This document shows positions 53,485 to 60,811 of a stretch of DNA of 64,000 nucleotides, one piece after another. The position numbers were made by a program, and so were the translations under genes. The first letter of the stretch is position 1, and every line of letters begins with the position of its first letter. The notes beneath the pieces were generated by a model, which did not search any database, was not told the DNA's origin, and saw only the letters and a list, made by a program, of their open reading frames with translations. Origin of the DNA: Flavobacteriaceae bacterium GF1 (GTDB lineage: Bacteria; Bacteroidota; Bacteroidia; Flavobacteriales; Flavobacteriaceae); contig WNKP01000003.1 of the NCBI GenBank assembly GCA_009797885.1, positions 310,001 to 374,000 on the forward strand, read 5' to 3'.

Positions 53485-54024
53485 TTGCAACTAGAACTGG
53501 TAGAACAGTGTAAGGCCAACAATAGAAGTGCACAGCTACGGCTGTATCGAAAGTATTGTGAGGGTATGTATTGTGTGGCCATACGTTTTTTGAAAAATGA
53601 GGATGATGCCGAAGATGTGTTGCAGGAATCATTTATCAAAGCCTTTCAGCGCATCCACCAGTACAAGGGTGAAGTAGCATTTGGGGCGTGGCTTAAACGG
53701 ATTGTGGTGAATGGGTGTATTGATTTTTTAAAGTCGAGGAAGCAGCGCATGCTGGAGTTGGATGAGCGCTATATCCATATGGTGGATGATGGGGATTGGG
53801 ATGTGGAAGACGGAATTGATATGGAAGACATTAAAACGGCCATTGAGGAACTTCCGGATAAGTATAGGTACGTGGTTCAGCTCTACTTGATGGAAGGATA
53901 CGATCACAGTGAAATATCGGAAATCCTCGGTATATCCGAAACGGCATCACGGACAAGGCTGTTGCGGGGAAAAGGCAGGTTAAAAGACATGTTAAAGGAA
54001 TTGAATTATGGGACAGGATCTTAG
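53485..54024 (+). CDS. ECF-family RNA polymerase sigma factor
   Basis: 179 residues starting at a TTG. Region 2 carries FLKNEDDAEDVLQESFIKAFQRIHQY. Region 4 carries IEELPDKYRYVVQLYLMEGYDHSEISEILGISETASRTRLLRGKGRLKDML (read in pieces), ending with the recognition helix SETASRTRLLRGKGRL. The next gene overlaps by 17 bp and encodes a single-pass membrane protein, the expected regulator. A third, secreted charged-helix protein follows with a 26-bp overlap. The three form one operon, probably an envelope-stress circuit. Confidence 0.9.
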   Translation: MQLELVEQCKANNRSAQLRLYRKYCEGMYCVAIRFLKNEDDAEDVLQESFIKAFQRIHQYKGEVAFGAWLKRIVVNGCIDFLKSRKQRMLELDERYIHMVDDGDWDVEDGIDMEDIKTAIEELPDKYRYVVQLYLMEGYDHSEISEILGISETASRTRLLRGKGRLKDMLKELNYGTGS

Positions 54025-54598
54025 AAAACTATTTGAAACGGAAAGGAAATCCAAAAAGTATCCGATGCGTGAAGGCCATGAAGCCCGATTTTTGGAACGA
54101 TTGGAATCCGAGCTTCCAAAAAAGGAACCAAGACCTGTGTTCTATTGGGTACGGATAGCCGCTGGGCTGGCTTTGCTTATAAGTATTGGCGCGTATTTTT
54201 TGATAAAAGGCCCTTTAGCTACCAAAACCCCAAACACCATAGTGGTCGATAAAGCGAACTCGGAAACATCAAAAACGGGGATATCCCTGGGAGATCTTTC
54301 CCCGGACCTCCAAAAGGTGGAGAATTTTTATGTGGCCAGCATTAACTACGAACTGTCCCAATTGGATGTTTGCGAGGAAAACAAGGAAATGGTGGACGGG
54401 TTTATGGAGCAATTGGGAGGGCTCGATGAAGAATATCGCGAATTGAACAAAGAACTCAACGAGTTTGGTCCCAATGATGAAACCATTTCCGCCCTTATCC
54501 AAAACCTACAATTACGGTTGCAATTATTGCAAAAATTGAAACAAAAATTAAGTCAATTAAAATCATCAGAAAATGAACAGGAAATCAATATTATTTAG
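54008..54598 (+). CDS. Single-pass membrane protein, probable sigma-factor regulator
   Basis: 196 residues. A basic cytoplasmic N-terminus (about 1-44, RKLFETERKSKKYPMREGHEARFLERL in pieces), a membrane helix at about 45-66, and a periplasmic helical domain (about 100-190) with heptad-like Leu (LQLRLQLLQKLKQKLSQL) suggesting a coiled coil. There is no HxxxCxxC zinc motif of classic anti-sigma factors. Because it overlaps the ECF gene on one side and the charged-helix gene on the other, I infer a membrane-bound regulator. The layout (short cytoplasmic part, one helix, extracytoplasmic sensor) matches that role. Confidence 0.75.
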   Translation: MGQDLRKLFETERKSKKYPMREGHEARFLERLESELPKKEPRPVFYWVRIAAGLALLISIGAYFLIKGPLATKTPNTIVVDKANSETSKTGISLGDLSPDLQKVENFYVASINYELSQLDVCEENKEMVDGFMEQLGGLDEEYRELNKELNEFGPNDETISALIQNLQLRLQLLQKLKQKLSQLKSSENEQEINII

Positions 54599-56024
54599 CG
54601 CAACACTGCTCCTTGGAGTAGGGGTTTGGGCCCAGGAAACCAAAACGTACAAGGAAACCTTTAATGTGGGCGCGGATGCCGTTTTGGAAATCAATACGTC
54701 CCACGCGGATATCGAATTTGATACATGGGATAAAAATCAAGTTGAAATTGTAGCTACGGTAACCTTGGAAGGGGCCGATGAGGAGGACGCGAAAGCCTAT
54801 TTTGAAAAAGATCCGATCAGGATTGTGGGAAACAGCAAGGAAATTGAAATTACGACCCGAACCGCAAGTTCATGGCATTTTGGTAATCTATCGGGAGATT
54901 TTTTCAATGGGGATTTTGATTTCAATTTTGATGTGGAGCCTTTTTTCCTTGATTTGGAAATCCCTGATCTTCCCGAGTTGGCCGTCATTCCCGAATTACC
55001 AATGCTGCCCCCTATGCCAACCATAAACTTTAGAAGTTTTGACTACGATGAATACCAAAGGGAAGGAAGTAAATATTTGGAGGAATGGGCCAAAAGTTTT
55101 GGGGAAGGATTTGATGAGGAGTACAAAGAGCGGATGAAGGAATGGAGCGAAAGGGTAGAGGAGCGTGCCAAAGTATGGGAGGAGCGTAATGCAAAAAAGC
55201 TGGAAGAACGTAAAGAACGATTGGAAAAGAGGGCCGAGGAATTGGAAAAAAGAGCGGAGGAGCGTGCCAGACTATTAGAGGAAAGAAAGCAGGAAATGGA
55301 AGAATACCAAGAGCGCAGGAAAGAATTACTGGGAAAGAGGGCAGAGTCTAGAAGAGGAAGAAGTGGTAGAGAACCCAGAATATTTTACTTTTCGGATGAT
55401 GGTGAAAACAAAAAATATAAGGTAAAGAAGACCATCAAGATAAAAATGCCCAAATCGGTAAGGCTAAAAATGAATGTAAAACATGGTGAGGTAAAACTGG
55501 CCGCTGCCGCCAAGAACATTAATGCAAGCTTGCGTTATGCAAGCTTGCTTGCCGCTACCATTGAAGGGGAAAATACAACCATTAGGGCTTCCTATTCGCC
55601 AATAGTGGTACAGAATTGGAGCTTGGGGCAACTCAAGGCAGATTACTCCAACCCCATTACCCTTAAAGAAGTTGGGGAACTTCAATTTAGTGGGGTTTCT
55701 TCCGATATTGTCATTGACAAATTGCGCAACAAGGTTTTTGCAACCAATAATCTTGGCAAACTATTGATAAATGATATTGGTCCGGGATTTACGGATATTG
55801 ATGTCTCCGTCCAAAATGGTGAGGTAATCTGTATCTTGCCGAGCACCCCGGTTTCCTTTTATTTGAACGGAACAAAATCTACCATACATTACCCCTCGGA
55901 TTTGGTCATGGAGCACACAAAGAATTACGATACCAGTGTCCACAAGGGGTTTAGGGGAAAGGACAACTCGGGAAAACGAATTACGATAAACTCCAAATAC
56001 AGTGATGTGGTATTAAAGGAGTGA
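54573..56024 (+). CDS. Secreted protein: DUF4097-like beta domain split by a charged helix
   Basis: 483 residues with a signal peptide (cleaved after VWAQ, 21). Residues 22-100 and about 280-483 form strand-rich DUF4097-like repeats (LEINTSHADIEFDTWDKNQVEIVA; KMNVKHGEVKLAAAAKNINASLRYASLLA). Between them lie an acidic/Pro-rich linker (110-150) and a very long helix at 180-258, made almost only of Glu, Arg, Lys and Leu with E/K-R pairs four residues apart. This resembles a single charged alpha-helix or coiled coil. No catalytic motif is visible. It is the third gene of the ECF operon and is likely its envelope effector or sensor. Confidence 0.75.
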   Translation: MNRKSILFSATLLLGVGVWAQETKTYKETFNVGADAVLEINTSHADIEFDTWDKNQVEIVATVTLEGADEEDAKAYFEKDPIRIVGNSKEIEITTRTASSWHFGNLSGDFFNGDFDFNFDVEPFFLDLEIPDLPELAVIPELPMLPPMPTINFRSFDYDEYQREGSKYLEEWAKSFGEGFDEEYKERMKEWSERVEERAKVWEERNAKKLEERKERLEKRAEELEKRAEERARLLEERKQEMEEYQERRKELLGKRAESRRGRSGREPRIFYFSDDGENKKYKVKKTIKIKMPKSVRLKMNVKHGEVKLAAAAKNINASLRYASLLAATIEGENTTIRASYSPIVVQNWSLGQLKADYSNPITLKEVGELQFSGVSSDIVIDKLRNKVFATNNLGKLLINDIGPGFTDIDVSVQNGEVICILPSTPVSFYLNGTKSTIHYPSDLVMEHTKNYDTSVHKGFRGKDNSGKRITINSKYSDVVLKE

Positions 56025-57593: not shown

Positions 57594-58268
57594 ATGGAAA
57601 TAGTACAATCTATCACTAAAGGGTCAGGACCTATCCCAATTTTGGACAGCGGCATTCCCGTTTCCCAGTATTGCCCCATCAATTTATCGAAGGACAACAG
57701 GGAACTGAATTCAATTAATGTGTCCGATGCCAAGGAATGTCAGGATTATGTGGACGTTGTTTTAAAAAGAAATGGCAGCAGGGTTGCCTATGGGGGGTAT
57801 TTGGAAAAGAGGAACTTGTATGGGGACAGTGAACGATTCAAGGGGCAGGAACCGAGGGATATCCATCTGGGGATGGATTTCTGGTGCGAGGCGGGAACCC
57901 AAGTTTTGGCACCGCTGGACGGTGCGGTACATTCTTTTGCGAACAATTCCGATTTTGGAAACTATGGACCTACGGTGATTTTAAGGCATCAAATTAATGG
58001 GAATTCCCTTTATACCCTTTACGGACACCTCTCCTTGGAATCATTGGAAGGCCTTTATATGGGAAAGGTCATTGAAAAGGGGGAATCCTTTGCTTTCCTG
58101 GGGACTCCGGACATCAATGTGGGCTATGCGCCCCACCTACATTTTCAATTGGTGCTGGATTTGGATAATTATCAAGGGGATTATCCTGGGGTGTGCTCGG
58201 AAAAGGACTTGATTTACTTCCGCAAAAATTGCCCCGATCCAAACTTGCTTTTGGGATATCCTTTTTAG
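57594..58268 (+). CDS. M23-family peptidase-like protein without signal peptide
   Basis: 224 residues. The M23/LytM core is intact: HLGMDFW (HxxxD), the strand LAPLDGAVHSFANN, the LYTLYGHLSLESL (HxH-type) region and HLHFQLVLD. No signal peptide or membrane segment precedes it, and the N-terminal 60 residues are unlike the usual exported LytM proteins. In some Bacteroidota this M23 unit occurs fused to a class-III aminotransferase and a kinase domain; here it stands alone. It could be cytoplasmic and non-hydrolytic, or exported by another route. The tandem micro-protein module follows on the same strand. Confidence 0.8.
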   Translation: MEIVQSITKGSGPIPILDSGIPVSQYCPINLSKDNRELNSINVSDAKECQDYVDVVLKRNGSRVAYGGYLEKRNLYGDSERFKGQEPRDIHLGMDFWCEAGTQVLAPLDGAVHSFANNSDFGNYGPTVILRHQINGNSLYTLYGHLSLESLEGLYMGKVIEKGESFAFLGTPDINVGYAPHLHFQLVLDLDNYQGDYPGVCSEKDLIYFRKNCPDPNLLLGYPF

Positions 58269-58324
58269 TTATCGGTGTACTGCCCTTAGTTACCGATTAC
58301 TGGTTTTGCACTCAAAAAGCACTC

Positions 58325-58448
58325 ATCGATATTTTTTTACACTTAAGCGCCTAAGGATGTTTTAATCGAAAAATTTAGAACGCTTGGCGAGATAAATCGG
58401 ACTGGTCAGGGGTCGAAAATAGCTTTGATATAAGAAAGATTCGGACTT
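58325..58448 (+). promoter_or_regulatory. Conserved leader, copy 1 of the tandem module
   Basis: 124 bp that align without gaps to 58879-59002. Shared blocks: TTTTTTACACTT, TTTTAATCGAAAAA (ending at 58373), GCGAG with TATCG-like ATAAATCG, and CGAAAATAGCTTTG. TAGCTTTG at 58420-58427 is an exact TAnnTTTG -7 box, placing the transcription start about 15 nt before the ATG at 58449. The upstream block is presumably a regulator site. Confidence 0.7.
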
Positions 58449-58697
58449 ATGAAAGCTATTTTAACCTACTTGGCAATTTTTGCTTTTGCTTTCCTGTCAA
58501 TGGCCCAGGGGAACAAAAGTGAAGTCAACATGGAATTTCCAATGGAAACGATTGGGATCCAACTCGAAGAGGAACCCCAAACAAGAAAGCGGATTCCCAA
58601 GAGTAAGCGTATGGTACGCCTCTACTTATTTAAAAACTCGCGTGTTAAAAAGGAATTGTCCTTTAGGACCAAAAGAAACAAAAGCAAATTAGCGTAA
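58449..58697 (+). CDS. Small secreted basic protein, copy 1
   Basis: 82 residues. A signal peptide (MKAILTYLAIFAFAFLSMAQ) precedes a short acidic stretch and a strongly basic C-terminus RLYLFKNSRVKKELSFRTK. The C-terminal half is clearly homologous to the copy encoded at 59003 (RLYRFKNSRVKKALKFQTK). It has an exact -7 box 22 nt before the ATG and a tiny membrane ORF immediately after the stop. I recognise no named family; a peptide-like, surface-acting or periplasmic binding role is possible but unproven. Confidence 0.8.
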   Translation: MKAILTYLAIFAFAFLSMAQGNKSEVNMEFPMETIGIQLEEEPQTRKRIPKSKRMVRLYLFKNSRVKKELSFRTKRNKSKLA

Positions 58698-58698
58698 T

Positions 58699-58833
58699 AT
58701 GGATACACTGTCTTTAATCTGTTTATGTACGAGCTTGGTTTTTGTAATTGCGTCCATTTACATCAACATAAAGCTCTCCAAAAAGGTTTTTAGGTCAAAA
58801 AATCCGATGCGGCATCATACCTCGCATCGATAA
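58699..58833 (+). CDS. Tiny single-helix membrane ORF, copy 1
   Basis: 44 codons beginning 1 nt after the preceding stop (TAATATG). The sequence is MDTLSLICLCTSLVFVIASI..., a membrane helix with Cys, followed by a basic tail rich in Lys, Arg and His. A similar ORF (METNLSLVVLFCSSVFVFGS...) follows the second secreted-protein copy. Spacing, similarity and repeat context support translation; only comparative data would prove it. Confidence 0.55.
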   Translation: MDTLSLICLCTSLVFVIASIYINIKLSKKVFRSKNPMRHHTSHR

Positions 58834-58878
58834 AATGCACTTCCCTTCGGTGTGCTGTTCATCGGATCAAAAACGGTT

Positions 58879-59002
58879 GTCGAGACTTTTTTACACTTCA
58901 TCCAGAAACTGGTTTTTAATCGAAAAACCCGTGTTCTACAGCGAGTTATATCGCTGCCGCTTTCATGCGAAAATACCTTTACAACGTAAAACAACCCAAA
59001 TC
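58879..59002 (+). promoter_or_regulatory. Conserved leader, copy 2 of the tandem module
   Basis: Gapless partner of 58325-58448. The -7 box is TACCTTTA at 58974-58981, one base from the consensus and exactly as far from the ATG as in copy 1 (29 nt between box start and ATG). TTTTTTACACTT and TTTTTAATCGAAAAA recur at the same distances. Confidence 0.65.
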
Positions 59003-59239
59003 ATGAAAGCAGTTTTGACCTTTTTCCTCTTCATTTTCCTAACAACTTCCGTCATGGCCCAAGGAGCCAAAAAGGAAGTAAAGGTAGCCACGATTACAGT
59101 AGGCGTGGAGCTGAACGTCAAAATTGAAAAAACGGATGTTTACAGCAACAAAGTTGCCCGTTTGTACAGGTTCAAAAATTCCAGGGTAAAAAAGGCCCTA
59201 AAGTTCCAAACCAAAAAACAAAAAGCTAAAATCGCCTAA
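59003..59239 (+). CDS. Small secreted basic protein, copy 2
   Basis: 78 residues from the ATG at 59003; the longer open frame from 58835 is leader sequence, shown by its gapless match to the non-coding leader of copy 1. Signal peptide MKAVLTFFLFIFLTTSVMAQ, then GAKKEVKVATITVGVELN and the basic C-terminus RLYRFKNSRVKKALKFQTK. Homologous to 58449-58697 in both halves. It is followed by a second tiny membrane ORF. Confidence 0.8.
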   Translation: MKAVLTFFLFIFLTTSVMAQGAKKEVKVATITVGVELNVKIEKTDVYSNKVARLYRFKNSRVKKALKFQTKKQKAKIA

Positions 59240-59244
59240 GACTT

Positions 59245-59352
59245 ATGGAAACTAATCTATCCCTGGTTGTTTTATTTTGTAGTTCTGTTTTTGTTTTTGG
59301 TTCGCTACTGTTGTCCTTACGTCTTGCAAAAGCTTCTTTGCGTCGAAGATAA
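59245..59352 (+). CDS. Tiny single-helix membrane ORF, copy 2
   Basis: 35 codons starting 5 nt after the preceding stop: METNLSLVVLFCSSVFVFGS..., one membrane helix and an Arg-rich end. It resembles the 44-codon ORF after copy 1. It lies antisense to the C-terminal codons of the amidohydrolase gene (59252-60811), so one of the two signals could be accidental. Confidence 0.4.
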   Translation: METNLSLVVLFCSSVFVFGSLLLSLRLAKASLRRR

Positions 59353-60811
59353 TACCGTCTTTGATCGTATATTTTACACCCCCAACGCGAACTACTTGGT
59401 TGTCCTCGTTGAGTCTTATGGCCCCGGTCCCATAGAGTACTTTTAGGTTTTTCAGGGGATTTTCCTCTACGATGACAAAATCGGCCAATTTTCCAACGGC
59501 AACAGTCCCTATTTTGTCTTCCATTCCCAAAGCTTCGGCCCCATACAGTGTCGAGGAACGAATTACCTCCAGCGGATGGAAACCCGCTTCCCGGAGCAAC
59601 TCCATTTCCCGTATATAGGCAAAACCATAAAGCTGGAAAATGAAACCGGAATCAGAGCCTGTCGTAACCCTGCCCCCACGGTTCTTGTATTCGTTGATGA
59701 AGGTCATCCAGAGCCTATAATTGTTCCGCCAAGCTACTTCTTGTTCCGTACCCCAATCGTGCCAATAAGAACCATGGCTGATCATGCTGGGTTGATAAAA
59801 TTTCCAAAGGGAAGGTAAGGTATAGGCTTCGTGCCACTCTGCCCTTCTCGCCCTATGCAAGTCCCTGCTGGCTTCATAAATGTTGAATGTTGGGTCCAGG
59901 GTAAAGTCCAGCTCTAGCAACTCATCCATCACCTTGTTCCAATGCTCGGAATAGGGTTCTGCAGCTTGCTCCCAAAGTTTTCCTGCTTCTTCAAATCGGT
60001 GTTGTTCATTTTGATAGTTGTAGTCCAATGGATAGTCCTGAACGGTCCGATCCTCAAAAAGGGCCTCTGGAAGACCGTACCAGTGCTCCATGCTGGTAAG
60101 TCCGGCCCTTGCCGAATGAAGGACGTTCCATCGGCCAACATCCATTTGGGCATGGTGACAAGCGGAACGGAGTCCCAGTTTTTTATTTTCGTCCAGGGCA
60201 GCACGCATGATTTCCGGTGGTGCCCCAAAGAACTTGACACCATCCGCTCCTTTCTTTGCATTCTCGCGCACCCATTCCCTTGCCATTTCAGGCGTGCTGA
60301 TGGGGACATCACTTCCCTGACCAAAACCGGTGTATGCCAGGACCCTAGGAGCTATGATTTCGTTTTTTTCACTTTTACGCTTCAAATCCAGGGTCCAGTC
60401 AATTCCGCGGCCACTGGGCTCACGTACGGTGGTAATGCCATGGGCCATCCACAACTTAAACACATAATCATAATCCGCACCTTGGGATACCCCACCAATA
60501 TGACCGTGCATATCCACAAAACCGGGTAAAAGGTACATGCCGGAACAATCCAATTCCTTCCCCCCGGCTTTAAGTTGAGGTCTTTTGGAGTTGTCAATTT
60601 CCACGCCCGGATAACCTACGACCTCAACACCCACAATTTTGTTGTTTTCTACCACAATATCAATGGGACCCCGTGGAGGGGCACCGTTACCGTTGATCAA
60701 TGTGACCCCTCTTATGATCAATTGGGAAAAGGGACCTTCCCTTAGGTCGTCCTGTGCGGTGACCGTAATCGATAAGAGAAGTACGGTTACAATGGAAAGC
60801 GTTTTTTTCAT
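59252..60811 (-). CDS. Secreted amidohydrolase-superfamily protein
   Basis: 519 residues with a signal peptide (cleaved after VTAQ, 20). The amidohydrolase fold shows DMHGHIGG (first HxH), the catalytic-barrel region with HHAQMDVGRWN and HWYG, and TTGSDSG (late Asp). ALGMEDKIGTVAVGKLADFVIVEENPLKNLK marks the returning composite domain. The lysine or other bridging ligand is not certain. Members of this exported group include imidazolonepropionase-like peptidases and prolidases. It follows the M14 peptidase by 7 bp in one transcript, so a joint peptide-degrading role is likely. Confidence 0.87.
   Translation of the reverse strand: MKKTLSIVTVLLLSITVTAQDDLREGPFSQLIIRGVTLINGNGAPPRGPIDIVVENNKIVGVEVVGYPGVEIDNSKRPQLKAGGKELDCSGMYLLPGFVDMHGHIGGVSQGADYDYVFKLWMAHGITTVREPSGRGIDWTLDLKRKSEKNEIIAPRVLAYTGFGQGSDVPISTPEMAREWVRENAKKGADGVKFFGAPPEIMRAALDENKKLGLRSACHHAQMDVGRWNVLHSARAGLTSMEHWYGLPEALFEDRTVQDYPLDYNYQNEQHRFEEAGKLWEQAAEPYSEHWNKVMDELLELDFTLDPTFNIYEASRDLHRARRAEWHEAYTLPSLWKFYQPSMISHGSYWHDWGTEQEVAWRNNYRLWMTFINEYKNRGGRVTTGSDSGFIFQLYGFAYIREMELLREAGFHPLEVIRSSTLYGAEALGMEDKIGTVAVGKLADFVIVEENPLKNLKVLYGTGAIRLNEDNQVVRVGGVKYTIKDGIIFDAKKLLQDVRTTVANQKQKQNYKIKQPGID

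Follow-up and report, generated by a model that had tools for sequence, protein, structure and literature searches.

The closest described systems are the LytTR-controlled small-peptide loci of Gram-positive bacteria, such as class II bacteriocin regulons (e.g., HdrR/BrsR of Streptococcus mutans) and agr, in which paralogous genes with a common type of promoter encode small exported products, direct repeats spaced by about 21 nucleotides (nt) lie upstream of the promoter, and a small membrane open reading frame (ORF) is found nearby. We find similar features in a 64,000-nt stretch of the genome of Flavobacteriaceae bacterium GF1 (contig WNKP01000003.1, positions 310,001 to 374,000; hereafter the window), where two consecutive units each comprise a long conserved leader, a gene for a small secreted protein with a basic tail, and a tiny ORF with a single predicted membrane helix. 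The family represented by these units differs from the Gram-positive loci in belonging to Bacteroidota, in using an ordinary signal peptide, in having more sites than one pair, and in its conserved basic C-terminal tail; moreover, no constantly linked regulator, exporter or kinase was seen, and many copies come without a membrane ORF. LytTR operators, as described in PMC11347149, consist of two 9-bp direct repeats separated by 10-13 bp, or sometimes of three such repeats, and those of the RcoM/CoxC type have three direct repeats with 12-13 bp spacers. The array in our family resembles the latter in that more than two putative half-sites follow one another at even spacing, close to the promoter or across it, and differs from them in half-site sequence, in its greater length and in being tied to one gene family.

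Each unit is a gene or two-gene operon of one Flavobacteriaceae family that is under selection and apparently unnamed; leader and tail, rather than the membrane partner, are what its members share. Our best explanation for the whole, which we offer tentatively, is an array for a LytTR-type regulator, an exported product with a working basic tail, and a tiny inner-membrane helper. The two units lie 554 bp apart, start to start, and are laid out as follows in window coordinates, with L001 and L005 denoting loci that hold orthologous pairs:

58269-58448, plus strand: leader 1, with box-like sites and a -7-like box; whole-genome profile match at E 9.2e-19
58273 (A1), 58294 (A2), 58327 (B), 58348 (B'), 58367 (C) and 58388 (D): sites of leader 1, given as the first base of CG or its equivalent
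58420: -7-like box of leader 1, TAGCTTTG
58449-58697, plus strand: secreted basic-tail protein copy 1 (P0001, 82 amino acids), tail MVRLYLFKNSRVKKELSFRTKRNKSKLA
58699-58833, plus strand: predicted tiny membrane protein 1 (P0003, 44 amino acids), 1 nt past the stop of copy 1; orthologues in L001 and L005
58824-59002, plus strand: leader 2, with box-like sites and a -7-like box; whole-genome profile match at E 2.1e-26
58828 (A1), 58848 (A2), 58881 (B), 58902 (B'), 58921 (C) and 58942 (D): sites of leader 2; A1 overlaps the stop codon of tiny ORF 1 (58831-58833)
58974: -7-like box of leader 2, TACCTTTA
59003-59239, plus strand: secreted basic-tail protein copy 2 (P0002, 78 amino acids), tail KVARLYRFKNSRVKKALKFQTKKQKAKIA
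59245-59352, plus strand: predicted tiny membrane protein 2 (P0004, 35 amino acids), 5 nt past the stop of copy 2; a relative in L005
57594-58268: M23 peptidase gene, the upstream flank of the units, with its stop at 58268
59252-60811, minus strand: amidohydrolase gene, convergent, overlapping the 3' end of tiny ORF 2

A preliminary description of this DNA had recognized a tandemly duplicated module of about 555 bp, and both its coordinates and its content were correct. The 124-nt leaders it had aligned without a gap (58325-58448 and 58879-59002) are identical at 67 of 124 positions, compared with 56 for the best of 19,915 random 124-mer pairs drawn from the window, and the two -7 boxes, said to stand at equal distances from the start codons, each begin 30 nt before the ATG. 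The conserved block is thus real, with a true length of about 180 nt instead of 124, its start lying some 55 nt further 5' (near 58269 and 58824). The gap between TTTTTTACACTT and TTTTAATCGAAAAA, which had been given as 17-18 nt, is 15 nt in both units; for this reason, pattern searches for the leader block with gaps of 17-20 or 17 nt returned zero matches.

Across the family, the leader is strikingly regular. Among 48 leaders (dereplicated from 81), five CG columns occupy fixed positions, each reading CG in at least 96% of sequences, at successive distances of 20 nt (46/48), 33 nt (48/48), 40 nt (48/48) and 21 nt (43/48), and the last column lies 58-64 nt from the ATG in 47 leaders. Conservation has a sharp 5' edge, which falls on box A1 about 175 nt ahead of the ATG, and the TGCAGTTYRTCGA-like sites lie upstream of a TAnnTTTR box, which we take to be the Bacteroidetes -7 element. 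In the orthologous pair L001, whose DNA is 94% identical over 7 kb (5.9% differing), leader 1 differs at 3 of 185 bases and leader 2 at 7 of 185. Sigma-70 promoter and terminator predictions gave no excess over shuffles.

The leader is also closely tied to the family. It precedes, at E<=1e-6, 142 of the 160 distinct family genes that have at least 190 nt upstream. With the leader profile, the window genome shows three strong matches (E 2e-26, 1e-24 and 9e-19; the next at 0.014), and all of them stand before its three family genes: the two in the window and one on contig C59. In 12 other genomes, chosen for having the family, 39 leaders at E<=1e-6 appear among the matches listed, 35 of them before intact copies, three before degenerate copies (in G032, G050 and, with an internal stop, G211) and one at a contig end. 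Both a third copy and orthologous pairs, for which the preliminary description had proposed looking, thus exist. In L005, copy 1 is followed by a tiny ORF beginning MDTLS... and copy 2 by one beginning M..(N)LSLVV....

A long, nearly indel-free block with a sharp 5' edge and a tie to one gene family might instead be a structured RNA, or belong to a mobile unit, and not act as a promoter; that some copies are dispersed and that inverted repeats occur near the ATG in unit 1 and several relatives would fit such a role. We regard this as very improbable, since the block from -185 to -45 (the last 44 nt lay outside the folding) has no shared fold, with a consensus energy of -1.43 kcal/mol and zero compensatory pairs, and since Rfam offered nothing above threshold, its one sub-threshold match (E 0.79) falling in the coding part. 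The RNA leader was rejected on these two results. The position of the -7-like box, 30 nt before the ATG, also counts against it, as it would put most of the leader upstream of transcription. As for the inverted repeats themselves, the one at window positions 58416-58462 (arms of 15 nt, 93%) extends across both the -7-like box and the ATG of unit 1, and several relatives have a different one just 5' of the ATG, for example GCGTTTTTATTATATAAAAACGC.

In regard to regulation, the leader is, on balance, most readily understood as an array at which a LytTR-type activator acts: a LytTR-domain protein would bind it as tandem direct repeats and switch the family on. Scored against [TA][AC][CA]GTTN[AG][TG], which we assume to be the LytTR half-site consensus, the best tandem pair per leader reaches a mean of 15.5 out of 18 over the 48 leaders, compared with 14.3 for position-permuted consensuses; 0 of 500 permutations were as good, and 1 of 500 when the bases were permuted too. 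With its sites 21 nt apart, the B/B' pair has a mean score of 15.2; in 40 of the 48 leaders, that of unit 2 among them, no other pair scores higher. By this score, the leaders appear to contain the pair of direct repeats that marks a LytTR-regulated promoter.

A wider regulon is not claimed: a motif search of the window genome gave 11 matches, compared with two for the reversed pattern, and many of them lie inside open frames. Separately, weak half-leader matches stand 5' of genes that by eye are PorP/SprF-like (type IX secretion), one in the window genome (L270, G000:C16:19125-19199, minus strand, E 0.127) and one elsewhere (L262, G152:C15:1894-1976, E 0.0054), and are suggestive only. Two box-like repeats, TTGAAATGCAAATAATCTCGATGAAATGCATTT, also lie at about position 1500 of L274 (G000:C44:28804) in the window genome, 5' of a 46-amino-acid ORF with a signal-like start and an end reading ..ELGVDKRKLRAPTKE, which may encode a further small secreted product under a promoter of related type.

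The secreted proteins themselves, 161 distinct sequences in all, have the shortened consensus MKTILTLIFVLFIG--AQAQ----EVKVETieM-----------VARLYKFKNSRVKKALSFtTKrNKAKLA, in which a signal peptide, called by eye and by model, is followed first by a variable, slightly acidic middle and then by a basic tail, conserved and about 28 amino acids long. In the 153 of 161 proteins that could be divided into these parts, the middle has a median length of 30 amino acids and a mean net charge of -2.3, and the tail has a mean net charge of +8.8 (range 3 to 11). The C-terminal residue is Ala in 143 of the 153, the last three are KLA, KMA or KIA in 134, and five have a Cys in the mature part. The ratio of nonsynonymous to synonymous substitution rates (dN/dS) for the secreted gene has a median of 0.189 (173 of 190 pairs usable, from 20 of 21 intended loci, L026 being left out, and with pairs that are not independent). 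Against L001, copy 1 has dN 0.026 and dS 0.233, and copy 2 has dN 0.014 and dS 0.136. The signal peptide is likely removed, leaving a largely disordered product in the periplasm or at the outer membrane.

We recognized no named family in library scans, in agreement with the preliminary description. Pfam, NCBIfam, PHROGs and PADLOC gave no convincing match to the family, the tiny ORFs being outside the PHROGs scan. Scans with 38 members yielded weak, scattered matches, the best at E 5.5e-4 in NCBIfam (GLPGLI, four members) and 0.0015 in Pfam, and a PDB profile search with the secreted family found zero chains at E<=1. Literature searches by topic and by the letters of the tail turned up nothing on a secreted basic-tail family in those parts of the sources that were accessible.

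The family's known range is narrow. With copy 2 as query, public genomes yielded 72 loci, in records of Croceivirga, Allomuricauda, Muricauda, Flagellimonas, Croceitalea, Maribacter, Arenibacter, Kriegella, Eudoraea and one Flavobacterium sp., and in metagenome-assembled genomes labelled only Flavobacteriaceae or Bacteroidia. Sixty-six of 249 Flavobacteriaceae genomes match at E<=1e-3 and 45 match strongly (E<=1.2e-10), the latter being a hand count that drops 21 weaker genomes (7e-6 to 1e-3). Among 345 genomes sampled across the phylum, matches below E 1e-9 occur in six, all Flavobacteriaceae; outside that taxon, protein-profile matches are weak, mostly begin at position 1 and stop short of the tail, with weak exceptions in G281 (positions 47-76, one stop; E 0.0042) and G307 (positions 3-67; E 0.0021). 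On inspection, G281 was not convincing as a distant member. Copy numbers per genome are lower bounds, taken from the best 22 candidates in the 249-genome set, the best 16 in the 345-genome set and the best 150 in the leader searches: G050 has at least nine matches, at least eight of them free of internal stops, arranged in arrays at intervals of about 730 bp, and G056 has at least four copies exactly 725 bp apart. A few family copies carry internal stops.

The tail also occurs without a signal peptide, once in a phage contig found by searching viral contigs, as a 40-amino-acid ORF (MNDKKKMPKKEQKTARLYRRKNSRVKKALSFSTSKDTKLT), and once in a cellular setting, as a protein of 53-56 amino acids (MSxGxPxK...) present in one recurring place in 4 of the 249 genomes:

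L184:2888-3010: phage protein with the tail, on IMG/VR contig IMGVR_UViG_3300038496_000167
L185:2762-2926, L186:2918-3088, L187:2943-3107 and L188:2896-3057: cellular homologues without a signal peptide

A profile built from the four cellular proteins alone also detects the secreted family, in the same 45 of the 249 genomes (best E 2.9e-11) and weakly in one more (0.002), so their homology is no artefact of the first profile. By these sequence comparisons, the tail is a unit of its own. The same four-protein profile gave zero matches among viral contigs, and the leader profile gave zero in the four cellular loci and the phage contig, in a search that did find the control, L003. In their surroundings, the phage ORF directly precedes a 99-amino-acid lysine-rich ORF and genes matching the PHROGs GroEL and GroES, and the cellular homologues adjoin a DUF1501-like gene near a metG-like gene (names by eye), from which an extra ORF separates the homologue in L185.

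The tiny ORFs of the window lie where the preliminary description had placed them, 1 nt (58699-58833) and 5 nt (59245-59352) behind the secreted genes. To count such ORFs, we required 26-60 amino acids, a hydrophobic segment carrying no more than one charge, three or more K/R among the last 14 residues, and an ATG within 130 nt. A basic single-helix ORF of this kind stands behind at least 56 of 162 family genes, compared with 259 of 9,080 random positions (about 12 times commoner), with the qualifications that the criteria miss clear cases such as those after L028 and L031, that at least one of the 56 (L036) looks accidental, and that the random positions were unmatched for location after a stop. 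Two types recur: ..FVIASI..S.RKK, in Flagellimonas and Allomuricauda, which P0003 and P0004 resemble, and ..FPKTKGxLRPLKVRVKK, found mostly behind an 85-amino-acid type of secreted protein. Purifying selection on these ORFs, the other test that had been proposed, is supported by a median dN/dS of 0.195 in the first type (20 loci; 37 of 190 pairs with usable dS), one of the pairs listed reaching 0.62. Between the window and L001, tiny ORF 1 shows two nonsynonymous and four synonymous differences (dN 0.020, dS 0.149), and tiny ORF 2 shows zero differences. They thus look like true genes under purifying selection, as judged from these comparisons. The earlier idea of a functional system made of a secreted peptide and its membrane partner therefore holds in part: the duplicated functional module with its conserved leader stands, and obligate pairing is unsupported, given the fraction above and the at least eight intact copies of G050, none of which has a tiny ORF behind it.

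The same counts bear on the thought that these are bacteriocin-like antimicrobial peptides with tiny immunity proteins, the acidic middle serving as a pro-region, the basic tail being the active part, and the regulation being of LytTR type. Small cationic exported products, a membrane ORF 1-5 nt downstream, LytTR-like direct repeats and several paralogues would all fit, as would the ABC-permease-like and ABC-F-like ORFs named by eye near 7 and 8 of 74 compared loci. In Streptococcus mutans, according to PMC6193735, bacteriocin genes are controlled by direct repeats through LytTR regulators. In class II systems, however, each toxin has a cognate immunity ORF, and here 106 of 162 copies lack a candidate under the criteria used; the at least eight intact copies of G050 have none either. 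The tail, furthermore, is nearly uniform across most paralogues and genera, under purifying selection and not diversification; many copies sit in one inherited neighborhood, with msrA at 43 of the 74 loci; and a phage carries the tail without a signal. We consider antimicrobial function unlikely.

This neighborhood was compared across the 74 loci, several of which end early at contig ends. Besides the MsrA gene, present in the fetched stretch at the 43 loci (Pfam PMSR in the window copy), neighbors include amidohydrolase (24), M14 peptidase (22), M23 peptidase (15) and MBL-fold (9) genes, and SecA, named by eye (15). An extracytoplasmic function (ECF) sigma gene lies within a few kb at 15 loci and its neighbor at 19, the window included. 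Other copies are located elsewhere, at L002, L003, L013, L024 and L073 or at L047, L057, L059 and L062. From these counts and outlying loci, many copies share one inherited neighborhood with local duplication, and some are dispersed. In the window itself, positions 53485-56024 hold an ECF-type sigma gene (Pfam) followed by overlapping ORFs of 196 and 483 amino acids without Pfam match, a set that recurs near the family at 15 to 28 of the 74 loci.

No regulator, transporter or kinase is constant beside the family at these 74 loci, and none of the 34 LytTR genes of the window genome was found linked to it. This matters for a further alternative, in which the product or its tail serves as a secreted peptide signal and a kinase that detects it acts on the regulator of the promoter from which it is expressed. 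A leader tied to the family, a LytTR-type array and several near-identical tandem copies would suit autoinduction of this sort. A PAS-kinase-like ORF, however, is found near only 7 of the 74 loci, and the tail is conserved between genera beyond what is usual for signal peptides. Such signaling therefore seems to us quite unlikely.

The proteins could also be ordinary clade-specific, stress-induced periplasmic proteins, their tiny ORFs incidental and their regulator not LytTR but, for example, the nearby ECF sigma factor. The restricted clade, the frequent context of msrA and the ECF sigma gene and the repeated local duplication favor this possibility. Among known proteins, the YhcN/BhsA-like periplasmic stress paralogues of enterobacteria are likewise short, exported and several per genome. 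In contrast to these, our family has no Pfam match that would join them and no predicted fold, and its basic tail is found on a phage protein and on cellular proteins that lack a signal peptide as well. Tiny ORFs retained at 20 loci in several genera with dN/dS of about 0.2, and some 12-fold commoner than at random positions, are hard to see as incidental, and the ECF set is absent from the fetched Arenibacter loci and most of the Maribacter loci despite their like leaders. Overall, we judge this alternative rather unlikely.

The mechanism we favor would thus begin with a cue that activates a LytTR-type regulator, which would fill the array cooperatively and recruit RNA polymerase. By the promoter spacing we assume, a -33 element would fall about where box D lies, and the activator should therefore be needed for the promoter to work. 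Once translated, the product would be exported by Sec and trimmed, and its flexible middle would present the basic tail to an anionic target or envelope partner. We suggest, with some reserve, that the tail may be the working part, binding a polyanion or a conserved envelope partner, and that copies may have been added by local duplication for dose. The tiny protein would act in the inner membrane. It is conceivable, though we hold it doubtful, that its basic end faces inward there and that it assists or modulates either the export of the product or its sensing.

A number of observations weigh against this account. On the regulatory side, the LytTR consensus is an assumed one, and in unit 1 of the window the B/B' pair scores 14 of 18 compared with 15 for another pair. 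One 13-mer (TGCAGTTYRTCGA) has its four top columns at B', B, C and D, spaced 19-21 nt, and a six-site sum reached by 0 of 400 permutations, but it was written after partial matches and box B had been seen, so this test is not independent, and with it A1 and A2 rank seventh and eighth with a weak fit. Eighteen of the 160 family genes are without the leader; these mostly have divergent tails, and two in L093 have ordinary ones. With 34 LytTR matches over the cut-off in the window genome, a candidate regulator is cheap, and the ECF sigma gene and its neighbor, a few kb off at 15 to 19 of the 74 loci, could be the regulator instead. On the side of the product, its disorder and its binding are things we infer. 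AlphaFold was confident of the signal helix alone in P0002 (predicted local distance difference test score, pLDDT, 68) and gave helices at low confidence for a homologue without signal peptide (pLDDT 66). The cellular and phage tails misfit a purely envelope target, and their occurrence without a signal peptide suggests that the target is not only outside the cell. Finally, most family genes have no tiny ORF under the criteria used.

Our findings describe an unnamed but selected family with at least eight intact copies in a single genome (G050), accompanied by micro-proteins of 35-44 amino acids, which are easy to overlook. LytTR-type regulation can be put to the test here, in a phylum whose members can have many LytTR genes (34 in the window genome), and because the leader is so rigid, its regulator should be findable by DNA pull-down. 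The phage copy may likewise provide a handle on the target of the tail. More speculatively, and in our view with very little likelihood, the tail could be an independent interaction module that serves in three settings: exported in many doses, intracellular without a signal peptide, and in a phage beside GroEL/GroES. The exported form would then be what a LytTR circuit reserved for the family produces, and it might also induce that circuit, with the tiny protein as receptor or tuner and the phage using a mimic. We know of no earlier peptide-type circuit like this in Bacteroidota; if true, it would be the first of its kind in the phylum.

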